This document shows, in pieces, positions 32,515 through 60,079 of a DNA stretch of 64,000 bases. The notes below the pieces were generated by a model that saw only the letters and a list, made by a program, of their open reading frames with translations, was not told where the DNA came from and searched no databases. A program made the position numbers and the translations under genes. This DNA is from Oscillospiraceae bacterium (GTDB lineage: Bacteria; Bacillota; Clostridia; Oscillospirales; Oscillospiraceae), in assembly GCA_902798545.1 (NCBI GenBank), contig CADBWQ010000001.1, positions 59,433-123,432 of the forward strand, written 5' to 3'. The first letter of the stretch is position 1. Every line of letters begins with the position of its first letter.

Positions 32515-33243
32515 ATGGAAAAAGTTGCCCTTGTCACCGGTTCCTCTCGCGGAATCGGGGCCGCAATTGCGACACTTCTTGCCCACGAAGGCTGGGCCGT
32601 CTGTATCAACTATCTTGAACAGCGTAAAAAAGCGGAAGCACTTGTGGCAAAGCTCCGCACAGAGGGCTGCGTTGCCATGTGTGTACAGGCGGATGTTGCA
32701 GACCGCAGTTCCGTTGACGCCATGGTCCGTCAGATCGAAGACGCCCTTGGACACGTCACACTGCTGGTCAACAATGCGGGCATTGCCCGCCAGCAGCAGT
32801 TTCAGGATGTGGACCAGGAGACCTGGCATCGGATTCTCTCCGTGAATCTCGGTGGCTGTTTCAACTGCAGCCAGGCCGTGATTCGGCCGATGCTCAGAGA
32901 GCACAGCGGGTGTATCATCAACATCAGCTCCATCTGGGGCAGTCACGGTGCCTCCTGTGAGAGCGTCTATTCCTCTTCCAAGCATGCCATCATCGGCCTG
33001 ACCCGGTCTCTTGCGGCTGAGTTCGCTCCCAGCGGCATTCGGGTCAACTGTGTGGCCCCCGGTGTGATTGAGACGGATATGATTCAGGCGCTCGGTGAGG
33101 AGACCCTCGCTGTTCTTCGGAAGGAAATGCCCTTCCGTCGATTCGGAACGCCGGAGGAGGTCGCGAAGTCCGTACTGCATCTTGCCACCGCAGAATATAT
33201 AACCGGCCAGGTTCTGACCGTGGACGGCGGATTTTTATTTTAG
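32515..33243 (+). CDS. fabG: 3-oxoacyl-ACP reductase FabG-like (SDR)
   Basis: NADPH-dependent short-chain dehydrogenase of 242 residues. The Rossmann motif TGSSRGIGAAIA, the NNAG motif and the catalytic Tyr-Lys in YSSSKHA are intact. The C-terminal tail GQVLTVDGGF is typical of FabG, which reduces 3-oxoacyl-ACP in fatty-acid elongation. The neighbouring plsC supports a lipid role, but a stand-alone FabG-like reductase of another substrate cannot be excluded because no other fab genes are nearby. Confidence 0.88.
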   Translation: MEKVALVTGSSRGIGAAIATLLAHEGWAVCINYLEQRKKAEALVAKLRTEGCVAMCVQADVADRSSVDAMVRQIEDALGHVTLLVNNAGIARQQQFQDVDQETWHRILSVNLGGCFNCSQAVIRPMLREHSGCIINISSIWGSHGASCESVYSSSKHAIIGLTRSLAAEFAPSGIRVNCVAPGVIETDMIQALGEETLAVLRKEMPFRRFGTPEEVAKSVLHLATAEYITGQVLTVDGGFLF

Positions 33244-33255
33244 GAGGTAATCCCC

Positions 33256-34557
33256 ATGCGCATGACAGATCTGATTGCGAAAAAACGCGACGGTGAAGCC
33301 CTGACGACGGAAGAGATCCGGTACATGATCTCGGAGTATACCGCCGGCATCATCCCGGACTATCAGATGTCCGCGATGTGCATGGCGATTCTGCTCCGCG
33401 GGATGGACGACCGTGAAGTGCTCGACCTGACCCTTGCGATGCAGCACTCCGGGGATATCCTCGACCTCAGTCCAATTCAGGGCATCAAGGCGGATAAGCA
33501 TTCCACCGGCGGGGTAGGTGACAAGACGAGTCTCGTCCTCTGCCCGATGGTTGCAGCCTGCGGGCTGAAGATTGCCAAGATGTCCGGCCGCGGGCTTGGT
33601 CATACCGGTGGAACCATCGACAAGCTTGAAAGCTTCCCGGGTTTCTCCACCGCACTTACTGAGGAACAGTTTTTCGAGAATGTCAACCGGCATGGCATTG
33701 CCATCATGGGCCAGACGGCCAACCTGGTTCCCGCCGACAAAAAGCTCTACGCCCTGCGCGACGTGACCGGCACGGTTCCCTCTATTCCCCTGATCGTAAG
33801 CTCTATCATGTCGAAAAAACTGGCCTCCGGCGCCGACGTGATCGTTCTGGACGTCAAGTGCGGGGACGGCTCCTTCATGAAGACGCCGGAAGATGCGGAA
33901 GAACTGGCCAGAAATCTGACCCGGATCGGCCGCCTGGCCGGAAAGCGCTGTGCCGCTATCATCACGGACATGGATCAGCCTCTGGGCTTTGCTGTCGGTA
34001 ATGCGCTTGAGGTCAGGGAAGCCATTTCTGTCCTCAAGGGGGAACAGGAGGGCGATCTGCTCCGGCTGTGTCTTGCGCTCGGGAGCTGCATGCTGACCGA
34101 AGCGGAGTTTGTTTCCACGCGCGAAGAAGCGGAGAAGATGCTGCTCGACGCCGTCCACAGCGGTCGTGCATTGGACAAGCTGGCAGAGATGGTCTCTGCC
34201 CAGGGCGGGGATTCATCTGCTGTCTATCATCCGGAGCTGCTTCCTCAGGCACCTGTCGTCATGGAGGTTCCTGCCGAGCGCTCAGGGGTTGTCAGTCGGA
34301 TTCACGCGGAGGCTGTCGGTCTGGTCAGCATGAAGCTGGGCGGCGGCAGGGCAACAAAGGAGGATGTGATTGATCCCCGTGTCGGTGTCGTCCTGCACAG
34401 AAAGCTTGGAGACTCCGTCGCCAGGGGCGAATCGATCGCCGCCATTCACGCCGCCGATGAGGAAAGTGCCAGGGCTGCTGTGGAGATGCTGCGCTCCTGC
34501 TATGAGTTCAGCGATTCGTCCGTTATCCGCCCCCCCTTCATCCGCAAGATTTTGTAA
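33256..34557 (+). CDS. pdp: Pyrimidine-nucleoside phosphorylase
   Basis: Phosphorolyses uridine, thymidine and related nucleosides to base and (deoxy)ribose 1-phosphate. The 433-residue protein begins MRMTDLIAKKRDGEALTTEE with the family signature KHSTGGVGDKTSLVL and KMSGRGLGHTGGTIDKLESF. The length and the Pdp-type (rather than DeoA) N terminus fit Bacillota. AGGAGG precedes the ATG. It ends the plus-strand run and is followed by a terminator. Confidence 0.96.
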   Translation: MRMTDLIAKKRDGEALTTEEIRYMISEYTAGIIPDYQMSAMCMAILLRGMDDREVLDLTLAMQHSGDILDLSPIQGIKADKHSTGGVGDKTSLVLCPMVAACGLKIAKMSGRGLGHTGGTIDKLESFPGFSTALTEEQFFENVNRHGIAIMGQTANLVPADKKLYALRDVTGTVPSIPLIVSSIMSKKLASGADVIVLDVKCGDGSFMKTPEDAEELARNLTRIGRLAGKRCAAIITDMDQPLGFAVGNALEVREAISVLKGEQEGDLLRLCLALGSCMLTEAEFVSTREEAEKMLLDAVHSGRALDKLAEMVSAQGGDSSAVYHPELLPQAPVVMEVPAERSGVVSRIHAEAVGLVSMKLGGGRATKEDVIDPRVGVVLHRKLGDSVARGESIAAIHAADEESARAAVEMLRSCYEFSDSSVIRPPFIRKIL

Positions 34558-34655: not shown

Positions 34656-35492
34656 TCACTGTACTGCGTGATAGCGCAGATACTGCAGGATCATATTCAA
34701 TCCTGTGGAATTGAGCGTCCGTCCGTCTGCGGAGGCATACTCCTGCAGCAGCATTCCGCTCACATCCTGAACCGCTGAGACCGCGTCGCAGTAGTATACG
34801 CCGGTCTCGGAGCACACTCTCTGGATCCATTCGTTCGCCTCGCTGCACTTTGCCGGGGAGAGGCCGTCACTGGTGTCATAGTCTATGGTGACGGATGTCA
34901 GCGGCAGACAGACGATCCACGTTTCCGGACTGGCTTTGCGGATGTTCCCGATCAGGGCTTTGTATCGATCCATAAAATCGAACTGGTCGATATTTGCGAT
35001 TCCGTCGTTGCCGAGCCCCATGATCAGGATCCGGGGCTGCAGAATCATCGCGGCATTCGCGGCCGTGACGATCGATCCGTCATTCGGGAAAACAATACGG
35101 CTGTCCGCCAGATCCGCCACTGCCAGCACACCCGAAGGCGTTGTCCAGACCTGATTGGTTTCTTCGCCGCCGCTCAGCATGCCATACCTCTTCAGGCCGA
35201 TATACGGGCTGTCACAGAGGAAGGTGAGCGAATCAATATAAGCCTGTCCCGCATCTTCGGTTTCGGGGAGTGTATTCAGTGTTCCGTCGCCCATTTGCGC
35301 GGGCCTTGTCTCCGTGCTCTCCACGCGTTCTGTCTTCACCGGCCTGGTGCCCAGCTTCACACCGCCGCGAAACTGTTCCTCGCTGCTGCGTGTAAAGGCC
35401 GAAAACAGCAAGCCGATGAAAACCGCGAGAAGGCACAGGACAATTGCCAGCGCCCAGGCGATATTTTTAATTGCAGTCAGTCTGCCTCTCAT
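34656..35492 (-). CDS. Membrane-anchored SGNH-hydrolase-like protein
   Basis: A 278-residue protein with an N-terminal signal anchor (IAWALAIVLCLLAVFIGLLF) and an extracytoplasmic domain. LTFLCDSPYIGLKRYGM would correspond to the GDS block of an SGNH hydrolase, with Asp-Ser in CDS instead of GDS. ILIMGLGNDGIANID resembles the SGNH block III, where GxND has the catalytic Asn. The C-terminal YASADGRTLNSTGLNMILQY stands where DGxHxN would be, with the His replaced by a Thr-Leu-Asn-Ser-containing stretch. Its stop region follows the EF-G-like gene by ATGA overlap. It may be an inactive or altered acyl-esterase of cell-wall polymers. Confidence 0.65.
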   Translation of the reverse strand: MRGRLTAIKNIAWALAIVLCLLAVFIGLLFSAFTRSSEEQFRGGVKLGTRPVKTERVESTETRPAQMGDGTLNTLPETEDAGQAYIDSLTFLCDSPYIGLKRYGMLSGGEETNQVWTTPSGVLAVADLADSRIVFPNDGSIVTAANAAMILQPRILIMGLGNDGIANIDQFDFMDRYKALIGNIRKASPETWIVCLPLTSVTIDYDTSDGLSPAKCSEANEWIQRVCSETGVYYCDAVSAVQDVSGMLLQEYASADGRTLNSTGLNMILQYLRYHAVQ

Positions 35493-37501
35493 TCCTGTTC
35501 AGCCAGAGCTTTGGCCTCTTCGATGACCTTCTGCTGGACATTGCCGGGGGCCTCCTCATAACGGATAAACTTGCAGGAGAAGGAACCGCGGCCCTGTGTC
35601 ATGGAGCGCAGGTCAATCGTGTAGGAGCTCATTTCCGCCATCGGGACTTCGGCTTCAACCGTCTGCATGCCATCTTCGGCATTCATACCGAGCACGGTGC
35701 CGCGGCGCTTGGAGCTGATGTCGCTCATGATATCACCGAGGTTGGCATCCGGAATCGTGACCTGCAGCAGTCCGATGGGTTCGAGGATGGTGGGCTTGGC
35801 CTTGGGGATGCCGTCCTGGTAGGCGAGACGGGCAGCCGTCTGGAACGCCATATCGTTGGAGTCGACAGGGTGATAGGATCCGTCGTAGAGGGTGGCTTTC
35901 AGGCCGACCAGCGGATACCCGGCGAGGACGCCCTTCTGAACTGCATTGCGCAAGCCCTTTTCAACAGAGGGGAAGAAGTTTTTCGGAACAGAACCGCCGA
36001 ACACTTCTTCGGCAAAGATCATGTCGTCCTGCTCGTCCTGCGGCTCAAAGCGGATCCACACATCACCGAACTGGCCGGAACCGCCGGACTGCTTCTTATG
36101 ACGGCCGTGTGCTTCGACCTTGCCCTTGATCTTCTCACGATAAGCCACGCGGGCCGGAGCAAGCTCCGTCTCAACACCGAAGCGGCTCTTGAGCTTGGCG
36201 CAGAGGACGTCGACCTGGATATCGCCCTGCCCGGAAATGACCATCTGATGGGTTTCGGCGTTGTTCACAAGCGTGAAGGAGATATCCTCTTCGTTCAGTC
36301 TGGCAAGGCCGCCGGCGACCTTATCGTCCTGGCCCTTGGTCTTCGGGGAGATTGCCATGGAGTAGCAGGGTTCGGGCATCTCGATGGCCGGGAGCTCGAC
36401 TTCATTCTTCGGATCGCAGACCGTATCGCCGGTCTTCCAGTCCATCTTGCCGATGGCGACAATATCGCCGCAGCAGGCATCCTTGACTTCCGTGGTCTTC
36501 TTGCCGCAGACGGTGTAGAGACGGCCGAGCTTATCGGTGGAGGAAGCGCGCACATTGCGCAGAGACATATCAGAGTTGATGCTGCCCTTCATGACCTTGA
36601 CAAAGCTGTACTTGCCGAACTGGTCGGAGACTGTCTTGAACACGAAGCCCAGGGTCGGAGCAGAGGCATCAATGCCTTCGACGTCGGTGGGAGCCGGGAC
36701 ATAATCCATGATTCCCTGCAGGAAAGCTTCTGTGCCGATGTTCTGCATGGCAGAACTGGCGAACACGGGGATGACACTGCGGTCCTTCATACCGGCACGG
36801 ATTCCGGCGACCATATCGGCTTCTTCCAGTTCCATCGTCTCAAAGAACTTCTCCATCAGTTCTTCGGTGGCTCCTGCAGCCGTCTCCATGAGTTCCATTC
36901 TCAGGTCTTCGGCATGGCCGGCATCGCCCGCGGGGACCGCACCCTTGGTGCTCTTGGCTCCGTTGGTGGTGTAGCAGACGTTGTGGACCAGGTCGATTAC
37001 GCCCTTGCCATCGCTGGTCGGGATTGTCACCGGGGCGACGATGCTGCCGTATTTGGCACGCAGGGCATCGACCACCGCAAAGTAGTCGCCGTGCTCTTCA
37101 TCGCACTTTGAGATCACAAACGCTGTCGGAAGATTGGCAGCCTTCAGGTACTTCCAGCTTCGCTCGGCACCGACGGAGATGCCGTCTTTGGCAGAGCACA
37201 GAATCACACCCGCTTCCACCGCGCGGAGCGCACAGAGCACTTCACCGACAAAGTCAAAATATCCCGGGCAGTCGAGAACGTTCACCTTTCCACCGCCGAA
37301 AGAAATCGGGGCCACGGACGAGGCGATCGTAATCTGACGCTTGATCTCTTCTGCGTCATAATCGCACACGGTATTTCCGTCACTCACTTTTCCGAGACGG
37401 TCTATCGCGCCGGTGACAAACAGCATGCTCTCTGCAAGGCTGGTCTTTCCGCTGTTTCCGTGCCCGAGAAGGGCGATGTTGCGAATGTTTTTACTTTCCA
37501 T
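35489..37501 (-). CDS. Elongation factor G-like GTPase (second EF-G type)
   Basis: A 670-residue paralogue of EF-G. The G domain reads GHGNSGKTSL (G1), DCPGYFDF (G3) and SKCDEEHGDY (G4, where the usual NKxD is SKCD). Domains II-V are present and the length is close to that of canonical EF-G. It matches the EF-G-like group in Firmicutes usually annotated elongation factor G without a role beside rpsL/rpsG. The altered G4 suggests changed nucleotide affinity or a regulatory role in translation. It has its own promoter and overlaps the SGNH-like gene by 4 bases (ATGA). Confidence 0.9.
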   Translation of the reverse strand: MESKNIRNIALLGHGNSGKTSLAESMLFVTGAIDRLGKVSDGNTVCDYDAEEIKRQITIASSVAPISFGGGKVNVLDCPGYFDFVGEVLCALRAVEAGVILCSAKDGISVGAERSWKYLKAANLPTAFVISKCDEEHGDYFAVVDALRAKYGSIVAPVTIPTSDGKGVIDLVHNVCYTTNGAKSTKGAVPAGDAGHAEDLRMELMETAAGATEELMEKFFETMELEEADMVAGIRAGMKDRSVIPVFASSAMQNIGTEAFLQGIMDYVPAPTDVEGIDASAPTLGFVFKTVSDQFGKYSFVKVMKGSINSDMSLRNVRASSTDKLGRLYTVCGKKTTEVKDACCGDIVAIGKMDWKTGDTVCDPKNEVELPAIEMPEPCYSMAISPKTKGQDDKVAGGLARLNEEDISFTLVNNAETHQMVISGQGDIQVDVLCAKLKSRFGVETELAPARVAYREKIKGKVEAHGRHKKQSGGSGQFGDVWIRFEPQDEQDDMIFAEEVFGGSVPKNFFPSVEKGLRNAVQKGVLAGYPLVGLKATLYDGSYHPVDSNDMAFQTAARLAYQDGIPKAKPTILEPIGLLQVTIPDANLGDIMSDISSKRRGTVLGMNAEDGMQTVEAEVPMAEMSSYTIDLRSMTQGRGSFSCKFIRYEEAPGNVQQKVIEEAKALAEQE

Positions 37502-37630: not shown

Positions 37631-40600
37631 TTAAAATCTCATAAACAGGCTGATCAGTGTTACGATGATTGCATCCAGCAGCATCAGCACAAAAGGCAGC
37701 CACGCGCTGACCTCGCCTGCCCCGATCAGCTTGAAGAATACCAGCAGCATACCGATCACAGCGACCGCTGCTGTCACGATGAGATTCAGACGGATCGCCA
37801 CATACATGCTTCTCCCGGTGTCCGCCAGGTGGGTCAGCGGTCCAAGGCCCTCACGGCATATCACTGCGGAAACTTTGCTGGTTTCCGAAGGCTTTGCTTC
37901 AGAAATGCGGAACCGGTCGCCGTAAGGCGGGAAATCATAGCCGTCTGTTGCCACGTCGAAAACTTCATGCAGCATGTCCGGAGTAATATTGAAGTCGCGT
38001 ATGGCAAAGATCGGGTGCCGGTTGGAGGCAATCAGTTCCTGCAGGGCGGTCCTGATCTCCGGCAGCCCGGTATAGCTGATCTTGAAGATTCCGTACAGCA
38101 CACCGTCAATGGCAAGCAGGACCGTCGTTCTGTCGACCAGACGGTACGGGACCTTCACGTTCATCAGCTGCATCAGATCAGAACTTCCGCAGAGGACGGT
38201 GCTTCCCTCAATCCGCCCCTGAAGTCCGCCGCCTGACAGCCACTGGAAATCTTCCACCATCCGCATCCTGCAGTTGTTTTTCTCCATCAGCTCCGCAAAG
38301 CACGGAGCAAGTCCGGAACCGGACGCTGCGATCATGGAACCGGCAAAGCCAATGACCCGTTCTGCGCTGTCATCTGCAAAGATACGGACTGTTTCGATCG
38401 CGATCGTATCCTCCGGAAACAGGTCGCGGTCCGTCACGATGAGGTTCCGGCTGCAGCCGATATCGTGGATGCCGGACCAGCCCGCAACCGCAGCTCCGCT
38501 GGAGAAAATCCGCTCAGAGCCGATAAAGAACGGCAGGGCAAAAGCCAGGAGTGCCGTTACAGGAACCGCACAGGAGAGGATCGCTGAAAGAATGTACAGG
38601 AGATCCCCCACGCTGTGCTTGACCAGTGCCGTGAGCAGCGACAGCAGGATCGCCACCAGGAGCTGGAGAAATGCGCTTCTTGCAAACAGTGCCTCATCAG
38701 GAGGCGATTCCTCCGCTCTGCGGACAAAGCCGGCAGAGGGCCGGACTGACTTGAGAAGGGTCAGGTCGCCGCTGGAGCGGACACCTTCCTCCGCCGTCAC
38801 ACAGTACACACGCTTTCCGATAGCCGGGACTCTGGTGGACTTGCGCAGTGCCCGCGCCGAAAGCAGCGAGGACAGCAGGCATCCCATCAATGCCAGGCTA
38901 GAGAACAGGCACAGCGGGATGTGCGGATTACCAAAGCCTCCGACAGCAACGTTCAGCGCATCAAGCGAACTGATGATGCAGGCGAGAACTGCCAGAGCAT
39001 CAGCCCCGAACTTTCTTCTGGTAAGATTCACTGCGGCATTGGTCACGATGTCCAGGCAGAGCAGCATTATTGTCAGCTGCAGGCCGAGGCACATGGCGGA
39101 GGCAACCTTTGCGGTTTTGAGCATGCCGCTCACCGGGAAGCCAAGCGTGATATATGCCAGAATCACGATCAGTACAATCCCGATCTGAAAACGCATTCTC
39201 AGCATGGTCACCTGAGAGCCGTAGTAGCGGGAGGCGTTTGCAACGTTGACCTCTTTGCCCAGATCCTCGCTGTCGTCCTCCATTGTCGCCGTGCTTTGAC
39301 GGTCACCGATGCCGTTGATGCGGATCCAGAGCGTCATCAGCTCGTTCAGGATCCACTGTCCAAAGGTCGGAAAGTCTCCGGCATAAAGGATCTCATCATC
39401 AGCCGCCGGATCGTATTCTTCTGATTGGGCCTTCGTTTCGGCTTCTGTCTCTTCGGCCGCCCCGGTCTGCTCTTTTGTATCTCCGGGCGTGTCCGCCGTA
39501 TCTTCCGACCCGGTCTTCTCCGGCACATAGTCCTCATACCGGGCATATGCCTTAGGCTCATTCAGCGCTCTTTTTCTGTTCCTGTCTGCGCGAGCGCCGA
39601 AGCCCCGGAGGATCTTTTGCAGACGTCCGTCCGGCTTATCGTCTTCATACTCCGCCTCGGAAGGCTTTTCCGCCGTTTCTCCGCTCTCCTCGTCTGCAGA
39701 GCTCTGCTCCGTCTCTGTCGGGTGCGGGAGTTCGAGCGTTCCCCAGTCTGATTCCCCGCCTCCTGCCTGCTCATCCGCCTCCGCGGGTTCGGACGGGAAC
39801 TCTTCCTTCACAGTGTATTCTCTTTTTGGCTTCGACACCGGCGCTGCTTCAGCCGCGGTCTGCTTTTCTGTCTTCTCCGCGGCCGTTCTGGGCTTCAGCA
39901 GAGACCTGAGTTCCAGTTTCCGTTTCGGCCTGGCAGCCTGAGCCGCTTCCGTTCCGACTTCGGCATTCTGTGCGGCGGTCTCTGCCGACAGGGCCTGTAC
40001 TGCTTCCGTCTCCGGTATCTGATCAGCAGTCGCTCCCTGCGTCTCCTTTCCGGCAGGCTTCCCGCTTGTCGGCGCCGCCTTGTTCTGGATCATACTCTCC
40101 AGAACTGCATCGAGATCCTCCAGGTCATCTTCCGGTGTCACATGCTGCCCGGCCTTTATTCCGATTCCGGGCATGTCCGCATAGATCGGGTGCTGGTCCC
40201 CAAGCATAAAATCTCTCAGGATATCCCGAAAATCCAGCGGGTTCTCTGCGAGGAGCGGTTCTGCCTTTGCCGCTGCCGGTTTCTGTGCTGCATGTCCGGA
40301 ATCTGTGGAGTCTTCCGGCTCTCTGTCCGATCCGGAAGGGGCGCTGTCTGTCTGGTGTGACTGGCTCTCTGCGCCATTCCGGTCGCTCTCCTTCGGATCT
40401 GCAAACATATGAAAGAGCGAGGAATAGTCAAAATCATCCGTGACCGGGATATATTCTTTTTCTGTCTGTTCCGGGAACTCTTCGACAACCTTCTGGCTCT
40501 TTCCTCTCCGGAGCCATCCGGGCTTTGATTTCTTCGCAGGCGCTTCTGTCTCTGCCGGCTTCTCCGGCATCACTGTCTCATCCGTCTCTGCTTCCGTTTC

Positions 40601-40945
40601 GGTTTCCGCCGGTGCTTCCGGTTCTTCAGCCGATTCCGAAGCATTCGTTTCTCCAACAGGTTCCTCTTCTTCCTCAAAACGGTCAAATTCCGGGCCGGAT
40701 TCGTCCAGATCGGTGTCCTGCATTCCGTCTTCAGAGGTGTCCGCAGGGACTGCAGTCTCGTATTCAGTTTCCGCGGGGAGCTTCTCCCCGCTCATCTCTT
40801 CTGGTTCCACAGCAAAACGATCCCTTTTCTCTGAGAATTCTGACAAAATGTCCTCCAGAGAGTATTTTCCCGCATACTCTCCGGAATCCAGGTCCGGCAG
40901 ATCATCCCACAGATCTGTATCCAGGCTCCAATTCTCCCGCTTCAT
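37631..40945 (-). CDS. P-type ATPase-like pseudoenzyme with long acidic N-terminal region
   Basis: A 1104-residue protein. Residues 1-571 are highly acidic, Glu/Pro/Ala/Thr-rich and probably disordered. From about 572 it follows P1-type ATPase architecture: paired membrane segments, a helix pair ending SCAVPVTALLAFALPFFIGS (where the CPC motif is expected), GAAVAGWSGIHDIG, then VTDRDLFPED (about 837-846) in place of the phosphorylation motif DKTGTLT. A nucleotide-domain-like GLQGRIEGSTVLCGSSDLM and IFKISYTGLPEIRTALQELI follow. No TGD or GDGxND motif is seen; two closing membrane segments finish it. It lacks the catalytic residues and is probably a membrane scaffold or regulator. It is 56 bases after rlmB. 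Confidence 0.7.
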   Translation of the reverse strand: MKRENWSLDTDLWDDLPDLDSGEYAGKYSLEDILSEFSEKRDRFAVEPEEMSGEKLPAETEYETAVPADTSEDGMQDTDLDESGPEFDRFEEEEEPVGETNASESAEEPEAPAETETEAETDETVMPEKPAETEAPAKKSKPGWLRRGKSQKVVEEFPEQTEKEYIPVTDDFDYSSLFHMFADPKESDRNGAESQSHQTDSAPSGSDREPEDSTDSGHAAQKPAAAKAEPLLAENPLDFRDILRDFMLGDQHPIYADMPGIGIKAGQHVTPEDDLEDLDAVLESMIQNKAAPTSGKPAGKETQGATADQIPETEAVQALSAETAAQNAEVGTEAAQAARPKRKLELRSLLKPRTAAEKTEKQTAAEAAPVSKPKREYTVKEEFPSEPAEADEQAGGGESDWGTLELPHPTETEQSSADEESGETAEKPSEAEYEDDKPDGRLQKILRGFGARADRNRKRALNEPKAYARYEDYVPEKTGSEDTADTPGDTKEQTGAAEETEAETKAQSEEYDPAADDEILYAGDFPTFGQWILNELMTLWIRINGIGDRQSTATMEDDSEDLGKEVNVANASRYYGSQVTMLRMRFQIGIVLIVILAYITLGFPVSGMLKTAKVASAMCLGLQLTIMLLCLDIVTNAAVNLTRRKFGADALAVLACIISSLDALNVAVGGFGNPHIPLCLFSSLALMGCLLSSLLSARALRKSTRVPAIGKRVYCVTAEEGVRSSGDLTLLKSVRPSAGFVRRAEESPPDEALFARSAFLQLLVAILLSLLTALVKHSVGDLLYILSAILSCAVPVTALLAFALPFFIGSERIFSSGAAVAGWSGIHDIGCSRNLIVTDRDLFPEDTIAIETVRIFADDSAERVIGFAGSMIAASGSGLAPCFAELMEKNNCRMRMVEDFQWLSGGGLQGRIEGSTVLCGSSDLMQLMNVKVPYRLVDRTTVLLAIDGVLYGIFKISYTGLPEIRTALQELIASNRHPIFAIRDFNITPDMLHEVFDVATDGYDFPPYGDRFRISEAKPSETSKVSAVICREGLGPLTHLADTGRSMYVAIRLNLIVTAAVAVIGMLLVFFKLIGAGEVSAWLPFVLMLLDAIIVTLISLFMRF

Positions 40946-41001: not shown

Positions 41002-41757
41002 TTACCGGCTGCGCTGGCGCATGATCTCATACATCACGATCGCGCCCGCCACAGATGCGTTTAAAGAAGAAATCTTTCCCTTCATCGGGAGCGACAGGAT
41101 GAAGTCGCAGCTCTCACGTACAAGTCGTCCCATACCGCTGCCCTCAGACCCGATCACCAGTGCAACGGGCCCGGTCAGTTCTGTTTTCCAGAGCTGGCAC
41201 GCCCCGTCTGCAGCTGTTCCGTAGATCCAGATGCCGTGCTCCTTCAGTTCGGAAATCGCAGCCCGCAGATTTGACACCCGCGCCACCGGCAGATACTCTG
41301 CCGCACCGGCCGACGCCTTGTTGACAATCGCCGTCAGTCCCGCGCTTCTGCGTTTCGGAATGATAACACCGTGGGCACCCGCGCACTCCGCAGAGCGGAT
41401 GATTGCACCGAGATTATGGCTGTCGGTGATCTCATCACAGACAATTACAAACGGGTCTTCTCCAAGCGCTGCCGCCCGGTCCAGAATATCCTGAACCGTT
41501 ACATACTCCCGTACGGCGCAGACCGCAATTACGCCCTGATGGGCGTGCGTCTGGCTCATGCTGTCAAGCTTGCGGCGGTCGCATTCCACCACCGTGATGC
41601 CCCTGTCCCGGGCGACTGTGGAGATGAACCCCAGTGTACGGTCTCCGTCTCCCCCGGCAATATAAATCTTATCGATCGGCCTCTCCGCCCGGAGCGCTTC
41701 CGTTATCGCGTTTCTTCCTTCAATCAGTTCATTTTCGATCCCGCTGGTGTGCTCCAT
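41002..41757 (-). CDS. rlmB: 23S rRNA (guanosine-2251-2'-O)-methyltransferase RlmB / TrmH-family methyltransferase
   Basis: SPOUT methyltransferase that 2'-O-methylates G2251 of 23S rRNA. I prefer the ATG at 41757 (251 residues), which is 6 bases after GGAG; the ATG four codons upstream lies inside that site. The N-terminal L30e-like substrate domain (EGRNAITEALRAERPIDKIY) and the three SPOUT motifs (DSHNLGAIIRSAECAGAHGV, VIGSEGSGMGRLVRESCDFI, SLPMKGKISSLNASVAGAIV) are intact. Confidence 0.95.
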   Translation of the reverse strand: MEHTSGIENELIEGRNAITEALRAERPIDKIYIAGGDGDRTLGFISTVARDRGITVVECDRRKLDSMSQTHAHQGVIAVCAVREYVTVQDILDRAAALGEDPFVIVCDEITDSHNLGAIIRSAECAGAHGVIIPKRRSAGLTAIVNKASAGAAEYLPVARVSNLRAAISELKEHGIWIYGTAADGACQLWKTELTGPVALVIGSEGSGMGRLVRESCDFILSLPMKGKISSLNASVAGAIVMYEIMRQRSR

Positions 41758-41901
41758 TCTCTTCTCCATCCGCCGGTTTCTGACTCAGTTCCGGCGTTCT
41801 GTATAACACAAAATATTCGAATACAAATTACAATATAACACAAGATACAGAAAATGGAAAGACTTCTTTTTCAACTTCTTTGGAAACTTTACAATTTTTT
41901 G

Positions 41902-56956: not shown

Positions 56957-58843
56957 TTACAGGTTCTTCACCCGAAGGGCCCGGATCGCGTTCAGCACCG
57001 CAATTACCATGACACCCACATCGGCGAAAATCGCGGCCCACATATTGGCGATGCCCAGTGCGCCCATGATCAGGCAGCCGAACTTGACCGCCAGCGCAAA
57101 AACGATGTTTTCGTAGACAATACGGATGCACTTTCTGGAAATCCTGACCCCCTTTGCGATCTTCATCGGGTCGTCATCCATCAGCACGATATCCGCCGCC
57201 TCAATCGCGGCGTCCGATCCCATCGCGCCCATGGCGATGCCGATGTCCGCTCTGGAGAGGACCGGTGCGTCATTGATCCCGTCCCCAACAAATGCCAGTT
57301 TATCCCGCTCCGAAGACCGCTCAGCCAGCAGCTTCTCGACCAGTGAGACTTTGTCCCCGGGGAGCAGTTCTGCGTGATACTCGTCGATCCCCAGATCTTC
57401 AGCCACACGGGACGCAACCTTTTCAGCGTCTCCGGTTAACATAACAAGTCTGTTGACTCCGGCATTCCGAAGCGCCGCCAGGGCCTCCTTCACGCCGGGC
57501 TTCTCCAGATCCGAGATGACAATGTGCCCCGCGTAGGCGCCGTCGATCGCCACATGAATGATGGTCCCGGTGCTGCGGCAGTCGATGGGCGTGATTCCCA
57601 GCCGCTTCATCAGTTTTTCGTTGCCTGCTGCGACCCGGTGCCCGTCCACAACCGCGCGGACTCCCTCGCCGCCGGTCTCCTCGATCTCCGAGACTCTGTT
57701 CCGCTCAATCTCTTTCCCGTATGCGCGCTGCAGGCTCCTGCTGATCGGATGCGACGAGGCACATTCTGCCAGCGCTGCATATTCAAGCAGCTCTGCATCC
57801 TCCATCGGGCTGTGATGAATGCCGCTGACCTCGAACACCCCTTTTGTCAGGGTCCCCGTCTTGTCGAAGACCACGGTCCTCACTTTTGAGAGCGTTTCCA
57901 GGTAGTTGGAGCCCTTGATCAGGATCCCCTCATGGCTGGCCCCGCCGATTCCCGCAAAAAAGCTCAGCGGAATGCTGATCACCAGCGCGCAGGGGCAGCT
58001 GATGACCAGGAAGGTCAGTGCGCGGTAGATCCAGTCATTCCAGCCTGCCGGAAGCCCCGTCAGCATCCGCGCCAGGGGCGGCAAAACGGCAAGCGCCACC
58101 GCGCTGTATACAACCGCCGGGGTATAGACCCGTGCGAAGCGCGAGATGAATTCCTCCGAGCGGGACTTGAGCGAACTGGCGTTTTCCACCAGCTCCAGAA
58201 TCTTCGATACCGTTGACTCTCCAAACTCTTTTGTCGTCCGGATCTTCAGCACGCCCGTCAGATTGATGCAGCCGCTGATGATCTCATCCCCGACACCGCA
58301 TGCCCGGGGTACGCTCTCCCCGGTCAGGGCACTGGTATTCAGCGTCGAGCTCCCCTCCGTGACGATGCCGTCGATGGGGACCTTCTCTCCCGGCTGGACC
58401 ACGATGACAGACCCGATTTCCACTTCATCAGGATCGATCTGTTCCAGGGTTCCGTCGGTCTCGATGTTCGCATAGTCCGGTCGGATATCCATCAGCTCCG
58501 TGATATTGCGGCGGCTTTTTCCCACCGCATAGCTCTGGAAGAACTCTCCGATCTGATAGAAAAGCATGACGGCGACGGCTTCGTTGTAATCGCCGCTCTT
58601 TTCGTAGATTGCCAGGGCGATGGCTCCCAGCGTCGCCACCGCCATCAGAAAGCATTCGTCGAACGGCCGGCGGTTCAGGATTCCCTTCCAGGCTTTCCGC
58701 AGAATGTCGTACCCGATGACCAGATAGGCGATGAAATAGCCCGCCGCCGAGGCAGCCTCCGGCAGCTTTAGAAGATTCAGAAGGATCAGCAGCACAGACG
58801 CGGCGATGATCCGGATCAGCATTTTTTTCTGTTTCTTGCTCAT
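56957..58843 (-). CDS. Heavy-metal P1B-type ATPase (Zn/Cd/Pb exporter, ZntA/CadA-like)
   Basis: Exports soft divalent metal ions using ATP. The 628-residue protein has no N-terminal HMA domain. It shows the CPC motif (SCPCALVISIPLSFFAG), phosphorylation motif DKTGTLTKG, the SSHPIS motif of P1B pumps, LTGDAEKVAS and GDGINDAPVL, with eight membrane helices. The CPC type with a conserved Lys/Asp C-terminal helix points to Zn2+/Cd2+. The metallochaperone-like HMA protein is encoded separately upstream (58894-59112). Confidence 0.94.
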   Translation of the reverse strand: MSKKQKKMLIRIIAASVLLILLNLLKLPEAASAAGYFIAYLVIGYDILRKAWKGILNRRPFDECFLMAVATLGAIALAIYEKSGDYNEAVAVMLFYQIGEFFQSYAVGKSRRNITELMDIRPDYANIETDGTLEQIDPDEVEIGSVIVVQPGEKVPIDGIVTEGSSTLNTSALTGESVPRACGVGDEIISGCINLTGVLKIRTTKEFGESTVSKILELVENASSLKSRSEEFISRFARVYTPAVVYSAVALAVLPPLARMLTGLPAGWNDWIYRALTFLVISCPCALVISIPLSFFAGIGGASHEGILIKGSNYLETLSKVRTVVFDKTGTLTKGVFEVSGIHHSPMEDAELLEYAALAECASSHPISRSLQRAYGKEIERNRVSEIEETGGEGVRAVVDGHRVAAGNEKLMKRLGITPIDCRSTGTIIHVAIDGAYAGHIVISDLEKPGVKEALAALRNAGVNRLVMLTGDAEKVASRVAEDLGIDEYHAELLPGDKVSLVEKLLAERSSERDKLAFVGDGINDAPVLSRADIGIAMGAMGSDAAIEAADIVLMDDDPMKIAKGVRISRKCIRIVYENIVFALAVKFGCLIMGALGIANMWAAIFADVGVMVIAVLNAIRALRVKNL

Positions 58844-59290: not shown

Positions 59291-60079
59291 ATGTCGGATT
59301 CCCCTCTTCCCCATCACCATACAGATCATAAAAACAGTCTCTTTCTCCGCCCCGCGCTGTCCAGCGTGAAGGAATTCGGCGTCGTGGCGGAGCTGTTCAG
59401 TCAGCTGAGCGACCCCACAAGGCTTCGCATCTTCTGGATGCTGTGCCACTGTGAGGAATGTGTCATCAACATTGCCGCCCTTCTCGACATGTCCAGTCCC
59501 GCCGTATCCCATCACCTTCGCTCCCTGCGCCAGACCGGTCTGATTGTCGGCCGCCGGGAGGGCAGAGAGGTGTTCTACCGGGCTTCCGACAGCGAGGTCT
59601 CCCATCTTCTGCACCATATGATCGAGCAGACCATGAGCATCACCTGCCCCGAAGAGGCCGAGCTTCTGACGGACTGCCGCGCCGATCAGGCTGCGCTGAT
59701 CCATGAGGTTCACGAATATCTCGTCACACATCTGGATGAGAAGATCACCATCGACGAACTCTCCAGACGCTTCCACATGAACGCCACAACGCTGAAGTCT
59801 GTCTTCAAGTCCGTCTATGGCGATTCTCTCGCCTCCCATGTCAAGGAGCACCGCATGGAGCTGGCATCCGAGCTGCTCTCCGGCACCGGGCTGAGCATCG
59901 CCGAAGTGGCCGCGCGTGTCGGTTATGACAGTCAGAGCAAGTTCTCTGCCGCCTTCAAGAGTCAGTACGGCGTTCTCCCGAAAGAATACAGAAGATTACA
60001 CAGCAATTATGACCAGAAACCGGGGGTATCTCAGTCGGATTTTAAACAAAATTTCGGCGTTCTGACCACAAGATCTTGA
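59291..60079 (+). CDS. ArsR-AraC fusion transcriptional regulator
   Basis: A 262-residue protein joining two DNA-binding domains. Residues about 30-105 are an ArsR/SmtB winged helix ([20 protein letters not shown], then [20 protein letters not shown]), with Cys52, Cys54 and Cys57 in the metal-sensing helix. Residues about 135-236 are an AraC-type double HTH ([40 protein letters not shown]). A His-rich N terminus (PHHHTDHK) may add metal ligands. It is divergent from the HMA-ATPase operon and probably controls it in response to Zn or Cd. Confidence 0.88.

Follow-up and report, generated by a model that had tools for sequence, protein, structure and literature searches.

A putative pseudo-P1B-ATPase of the order Oscillospirales with an acidic head and a helical motif shared with LspA

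P-type ATPases are textbook pumps, and their heavy-metal branch, the P1B ATPases (CopA, PDB entries 4bbj and 3rfu, ZntA and CadA; model TIGR01525), is the described group closest to the protein analysed here. This protein of 1104 residues is encoded in a stretch of 64,000 nucleotides from an Oscillospiraceae bacterium (assembly GCA_902798545.1, contig CADBWQ010000001.1, positions 59,433 to 123,432), the whole of which is called the window; the protein and its relatives are called pseudo-pumps. With the P1B ATPases they appear to share the eight-helix membrane layout, the fold of the N-domain, the domain order and descent, while they differ in that DKTGT, GDGxND, TGD and CPC are missing, the A-domain is a remnant, part of the P-domain is gone and an acidic head with repeated motifs is present.

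A conserved fold that has lost its catalytic residues and stays under strong purifying selection is also the mark of pseudoenzymes such as pseudokinases and pseudoproteases. Docking-motif systems of bacterial membrane proteins include GpsB with the tails of penicillin-binding proteins and the FtsZ tail with SepF and FtsA. As in the proteins described below, unrelated membrane proteins there have flexible cytosolic tails closed by a short motif; the motif shared by the pseudo-pump and the lipoprotein signal peptidase LspA differs from theirs. We know of no order-wide family of dead P-type ATPases. Searches of open-licence papers with narrow terms turned up no account of a pseudoenzyme family among the P-type ATPases, and among the papers listed for the motif, of which six spellings were covered, and for LspA tails there was nothing on the pseudo-pump family.

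Descent from P1B-type ATPases and loss of the pump motifs

Pfam matched neither the window protein (E <= 1) nor, at E <= 0.01, a single one of 28 members of the family. The NCBIfam model TIGR01525 (heavy-metal P-type ATPase) matched residues 754-973 of the window protein at 5e-9, with a score of 35 bits that is below the curated cut-off of 346, and it was matched by 17 of the 28 members, the window protein counted. A profile of the family matched the solved CopA at 1.5e-7 and aligned tDeDlFPeg with KTGTLTEG of the phosphorylation site. In the copper pump HMA4 a weak extra segment paired the last cytosolic stretch of the family with the region after GDGxND, and on this ground the GDGxND part is read as cut out; by our reading of the alignments about 60 residues of the P-domain, GDGxND among them, would be gone.

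The AlphaFold2 model of residues 572-1104, built with 28 sequences, had a mean predicted local distance difference test score (pLDDT) of 90.4 and a predicted template-modelling score of 0.86. Foldseek analysis of the predicted body indicated CopA 4bbj as the best PDB match (E 1e-18, template-modelling score 0.57 on the query), and the best 50 rows were P-type ATPases or parts of them, P1B first, with one exception titled 'membrane transport protein'. Named by us from secondary structure, the predicted helices read as MA, MB and M1-M6, eight in all, and the body appears to hold a full N-domain between the two halves of a shortened P-domain and a two-strand A-domain remnant. Judged by the TIGR01525 matches in 17 of the 28 members, the CopA profile match and the predicted fold, the P1B resemblance of the window protein is not due to chance. 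The protein is probably a pseudoenzyme descended from a P1B metal pump, with its origin in an ancestor of the bacterial order.

The pump motifs were compared in 130 sequences, the window protein and 129 relatives, among which there are two doubles (L076/L003 and L112/L007, each pair being the same record). DKTGT was found in none of them (0/130; 0/128 without the doubles), and the same was true of GDGxND (0/130; 0/128). TGD and CPC were each absent from their places in all 130; the window protein reads RDFN and CAVP at these places, and TGE, TGD and GDGxND are found nowhere in it. At the CAVP place in M4 the Cys (residue 792) is present in 14 and the Pro in 106 of the 130 sequences. The His-Pro of the adenine-binding SEHP motif was found at its place in a single sequence (1/130), and the window protein reads SGSGLAP. 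The A-domain segment has 37-39 residues in 112/130 sequences, compared with 80 over the same aligned span in the CadA-like pump that is also encoded in the window.

These results agree with a sequence-only reading of this DNA, made before our analyses, which had noted VTDRDLF in place of DKTGT, CAVP in place of the CPC triad and neither TGD nor GDGxND, and had proposed a dead P-type ATPase. The fold prediction that it had called for gave a P1B-pump fold with an N-domain and a cut-down P-domain, and no relative restoring DKTGT and GDGxND was found in the comparison set; with both, the proposal is strongly supported. Loss of the pump motifs is well supported by the alignments, and a protein left with neither an aspartyl-phosphate motif nor a metal site, and without GDGxND and most of an actuator domain, should not pump.

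Instead of DKTGT, DxDxF[PS] is found in 117/130 sequences (115/128 without the doubles), and its DxD is invariant in alignments of 28 and of 38 sequences. An order-wide comparison of this region around Asp839 had been suggested for conservation; it is conserved in most of the set and lost in several distant families, which read FLPERLLYP, FNDTVVFP, and VDSDELFP or MMDSQDLFP. Since the distant families vary at this place, no catalytic aspartate is universal. These data bear on the alternative that the protein is an enzyme or a pump with a changed mechanism, in which the DxD of DRDLFP would act like the motif-I pair of HAD phosphatases. The frequency of DxDxF[PS] and the letters TGE in the A-domain remnant of part of the set (47/130) would fit it. 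Against it stand the distant families without the DxD (FLPERLLYP, FNDTVVFP, MMDSQDLFP) and the lack of the GDGxND region, which is HAD motif IV, and we consider a changed mechanism very improbable. An active HAD-like enzyme using the DxD was rejected, as the DxD is absent in distant families.

Acidic head and the motif shared with LspA

The composition of residues 1-571 (Table 1) confirmed the acidic head that the sequence-only reading had described in front of the ATPase-like body. In a full-length model the head was disordered except for short helices, two of which (residues 30-43 and 236-249) lie at two copies of a motif that reads roughly [FYL]-S-[LV]-[DE]-D-I-L-x-E-[FY]; the helix at copy 1 begins directly past the capping serine. 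The strict motif was found in 80 of 120 heads, compared with 0.0 expected by shuffling (78 of 118 without the doubles); these 120 are the 130 sequences less 8 whose heads are truncated at a contig end and 2 of insufficient length (L140 and L148). A looser pattern was found once in 76 heads, twice in 7, three times in 2 and four times in 6, against 0.2 in total by shuffling. Position 2 is Ser in 59 and position 10 is F or Y in 75 of the 79 counted matches. We infer from this that the motif is an N-capped amphipathic helix, and it is referred to below as the putative docking motif. Among relatives the acidic head reaches roughly 1000 residues, and the order-wide comparison proposed for it showed that it is common and not universal.

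Some further features of the heads were observed. Two more predicted helices of the window protein (residues 274-286, window positions 40088-40126, and residues 441-449, positions 39599-39625) resemble the docking motif weakly, with LEDLDAVLESM and LQKILRGF. In several nearer genera (heads of L008-L028) the docking motif is followed by another conserved motif that looks helical, RSREIVMEALGETI; it was not seen in the window. The protein of L140 (family f10) has 553 residues and was read without a head, and its gene still stands directly behind rlmB.

The motif also occurs on LspA. A search for LspA gave 40 matches, of which 30 loci were supplied and 29 tails were read (for L178 a wrong frame had been taken). 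The ten closest LspA proteins, from the genome of the window and nine others, have long charged tails and carry the motif at the end in all cases (10/10), and the pseudo-pumps of the same ten genomes all carry it as well, those of L014 and L026 by the looser pattern only. In the LspA of the window's own genome (L035, contig C14, about 32642-33740) the charged tail is some 200 residues long and its end reads FSLDDILNEFR. About half of the ten related LspA tails also contain a repeated motif of another kind, similar to DPFAEWE.

Searches at the DNA level with the core pattern gave five matches in the own genome compared with one for a reversed control. With names assigned by eye, one match lies in the pseudo-pump, one at the C-terminus of LspA and one at the N-terminus of a membrane protein that is phosphodiester-glycosidase-like, and the remaining two are internal to other proteins. 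In 12 further genomes, several of which belong to the ten genomes of the LspA clade, the core pattern gave 19 matches compared with 1 for the reversed pattern. LspA tails account for 5 of the 19 and the pseudo-pump gene for 3; of the rest, 5 are internal to other proteins, 4 lie no more than about 36 residues from an end of other proteins, and 2 are in no long frame. The glycosidase-like membrane protein, or sugar hydrolase (L036, own genome contig C16, 35880; name by eye), carries the docking motif at its N-terminus as MREYDLEDILAEY, and none was found in the first 160 residues of five other frames listed for it. A similar stretch, DIxEILAEY, stands about 31-36 residues from the N-terminus of a protein judged by eye to be DUF1700-like in L209 and L215.

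The same observations could be explained if a membrane-linked protease or adaptor recognised the shared helix as a tag, so that the dead pump and LspA would both be regulated through turnover. The motif is found at both N- and C-terminal ends and in long flexible tails (by the model in the pseudo-pump, by eye in LspA), as such a tag might be; the presence of up to four spaced copies in one head, however, exceeds what a tag needs, and we regard regulation by turnover as improbable.

Distribution, selection and gene order

Analysis of genomes of the same bacterial family revealed matches in 142 of 150 at E <= 0.001, of which 137 were at E <= 1e-24; the five weaker ones may be ordinary pumps. Over the order, 208 of 245 genomes matched at E <= 1e-12 (162 of 185 among high-quality genomes); 4 of the 208 were at E > 1e-16, where ordinary pumps score too, and those individually read were at about 1e-31 or stronger. 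A search of the class gave matches in 27 of 291 genomes, 12 inside the order and 15, all weak, outside it. Five of these 15 were read and all were ordinary P1B pumps with DKTGT, TGE and GDGxND, and a family that reaches past the order was rejected on this sample, with lesser certainty. The survey beyond the class was a single contig scan, of which the best 80 of 192 matches were taken; among the named records of these 80, most are metagenome genomes of Oscillospiraceae, Ruminococcaceae and unclassified Clostridia, and many titles mention ruminants. Many of the 80 loci are close kin, and counts over them are counts of sequences and not of independent events.

Against five relatives, the body had a ratio of non-synonymous to synonymous substitution rates (dN/dS) of 0.04-0.13 and the head one of 0.23-0.46; these ratios are rough, with dS at 1.1-2.4 being near saturation. 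The gene is under purifying selection, and a decayed pseudogene was rejected because of the low dN/dS of the body and the presence of the gene in 208 of the 245 genomes of the order. In L148 (family f22) the gene appears to be divided between two open frames of 376 and 434 codons, by a frameshift or an assembly error. Column identity was 0.30-0.55 across the membrane helices, while the N and P parts on the cytosolic side reached about 0.62.

In 72 of 74 nearer loci the gene immediately upstream, in the same orientation, is rlmB. To these L083 may be added, where our frame ran into rlmB and the exception is a frame artefact; in L113 no rlmB was found. It was also found upstream in 19 of 20 order-wide stretches, which were picked by hand, about one per family and two from the family of the window. 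EF-G was directly downstream in 36 of 70 nearer loci and within 6 kb in 46 of 70; for these counts, 74 of the 80 loci had enough upstream and 70 of the 80 enough downstream sequence. In the window 56 bases separate rlmB from the pseudo-pump gene, with no terminator-like site listed there, which suggests that both are co-transcribed and is not by itself a sign of shared function.

A link to translation or the ribosome had been put forward in the sequence-only reading from the two neighbours. The neighbours themselves were borne out by family models above their cut-offs, and the gene order is very strong for rlmB and moderate for EF-G (36/70); gene order is the whole of the evidence for the link. 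A translation-linked factor, which would hold ribosomes or the EF-G-like GTPase at the membrane, would account for the position of rlmB (72/74 plus the one artefact, and 19/20) and for the adjacent EF-G. Its weaknesses are that nothing beyond gene order speaks for it, that EF-G adjacency is missing in about half of the loci, and that the motif is shared with LspA, which is not known to have a ribosomal role; such a factor seems to us highly unlikely.

Gene order and conservation also bear on a sensor of ligands or nucleotides, in which the N-domain would bind a nucleotide or metabolite, reshape the membrane bundle or the head, and report energy or metal status, perhaps to the ribosome. The N- and P-domains are the most conserved parts of the protein, nearer families retain the GGG of the nucleotide pocket, and the order with rlmB and EF-G would fit. 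However, the adenine-binding His-Pro is absent in 129/130 sequences and several distant families no longer have the pocket's first glycine. We regard a sensor as unlikely.

The coordinates of the gene, its parts and its neighbours are given in Table 1. The open reading frame agrees with that of the sequence-only reading, which had not mentioned the strand. The window also carries a genuine CadA-like P1B ATPase at 56957-58843, with DKTGT, TGD and GDGIND, followed at 59291-60079 by an ArsR-like regulator with an AraC-like C-terminal part, as judged by eye.

Table 1. Features of the pseudo-pump gene and its immediate neighbours (window positions)
Feature	Position	Strand	Basis
Whole gene, 1104-residue pseudo-P1B-ATPase	37631..40945	- (40945 to 37631)	Open reading frame and matches of relatives
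Acidic disordered head, residues 1-571	39233..40945	-	Mostly pLDDT < 50; 143 acidic (D+E) against 59 basic (K+R) residues
P1B-type body with membrane and cytosolic parts, residues 572-1104; eight membrane helices by our reading	37634..39232	-	AlphaFold2, Foldseek
Putative docking motif copy 1, YSLEDILSEF, residues 28-37	40835..40864	-	Predicted helix 30-43, pLDDT about 50-66
Putative docking motif copy 2, LDFRDILRDF, residues 237-246	40208..40237	-	Predicted helix 236-249, surroundings otherwise disordered
A-domain remnant, residues 710-749, VTAEEG in the window	38699..38818	-	Length of the aligned span
CAVP at the CPC place in M4, residues 792-795	38561..38572	-	Alignment
DRDLFP at the DKTGT place, residues 839-844	38414..38431	-	Alignment
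GGG of the N-domain, residues 905-907, at the GxG of P1B pumps	38225..38233	-	Alignment
RDFN at the TGD(N) place, residues 983-986	37988..37999	-	Alignment
rlmB, immediate upstream neighbour	41002..41769	-	TIGR00186, 244.5 bits, cut-off 160
EF-G-like GTPase, downstream neighbour	35489..37501	-	NF009381, 803 bits, cut-off 583

Proposed role

Because the parts needed for pumping are lost and the protein carries a floppy tail with putative docking motifs, one of which also ends the LspA tail in some members of the order, it is probably a membrane scaffold rather than a pump. A scaffold was among the roles named in the sequence-only reading; the motif shared with LspA supports it indirectly, and the role itself we infer. 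In a more specific form, for which we see roughly even chances, the protein would be a non-pumping scaffold whose head recruits a cytosolic hub protein shared with LspA. The membrane bundle would be kept as an anchor and the cytosolic N- and P-domains would also be kept, perhaps as a protein-binding surface, and the acidic disordered head would be a flexible arm with up to four short N-capped amphipathic helices. Each helix would dock into a groove of the hub. In one clade LspA, the lipoprotein signal peptidase, would be drawn to this hub as well, by the helix of this kind on its C-terminal tail. The pseudo-pump might in this way organise membrane proteins, perhaps for lipoprotein maturation or for another envelope process.

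Several observations weigh against this scaffold. Even by the loosest pattern no motif was found in 29 of the 120 heads (29 of 118 without the doubles), and in family f10 the 15 open frames listed encode 547-596 amino acids, which leaves no room for a head, so not every member needs one. The body could then have had its function first, and the arm would be an addition that can in part be replaced. The other 19 of the 29 LspA tails lack the motif, which is confined to one clade. A looser DNA pattern, with 7 matches in the own genome, matched the control just as often (7) and is uninformative for that reason, and the core pattern is not exclusive, since 11 of its 19 matches in the further genomes lie at other places. 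The full-length model gave no sign that the motif docks on the body (motif pLDDT about 50-68), and a single chain cannot show a partner; the hub is postulated. Finally, not every catalytic trace is gone, as the 47 sequences with TGE in the A-domain remnant demonstrate (the window reads TAE), and with the GGG kept, some residual ligand binding by the N-domain may be conceivable.

A wider form of the scaffold proposal is more tentative, and we hold it to be possible rather than probable. The order would have a membrane-organising system of its own, in which the gutted pump as anchor, its multivalent arm and, in one clade, the LspA tail meet on one hub, and lipoprotein maturation would be tied to a near-universal scaffold.

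What is new here is a pseudoenzyme family within the P-type ATPases and a helical head motif that it shares with LspA. If the scaffold proposal is true, common gut anaerobes have a conserved and unnamed envelope component for which there is no matching Pfam family, and the 10-residue motif would be a direct handle on its partner. Annotation would then call for caution as well, since the protein behind a weak 'heavy-metal ATPase' match from these genomes may be one that does not pump.

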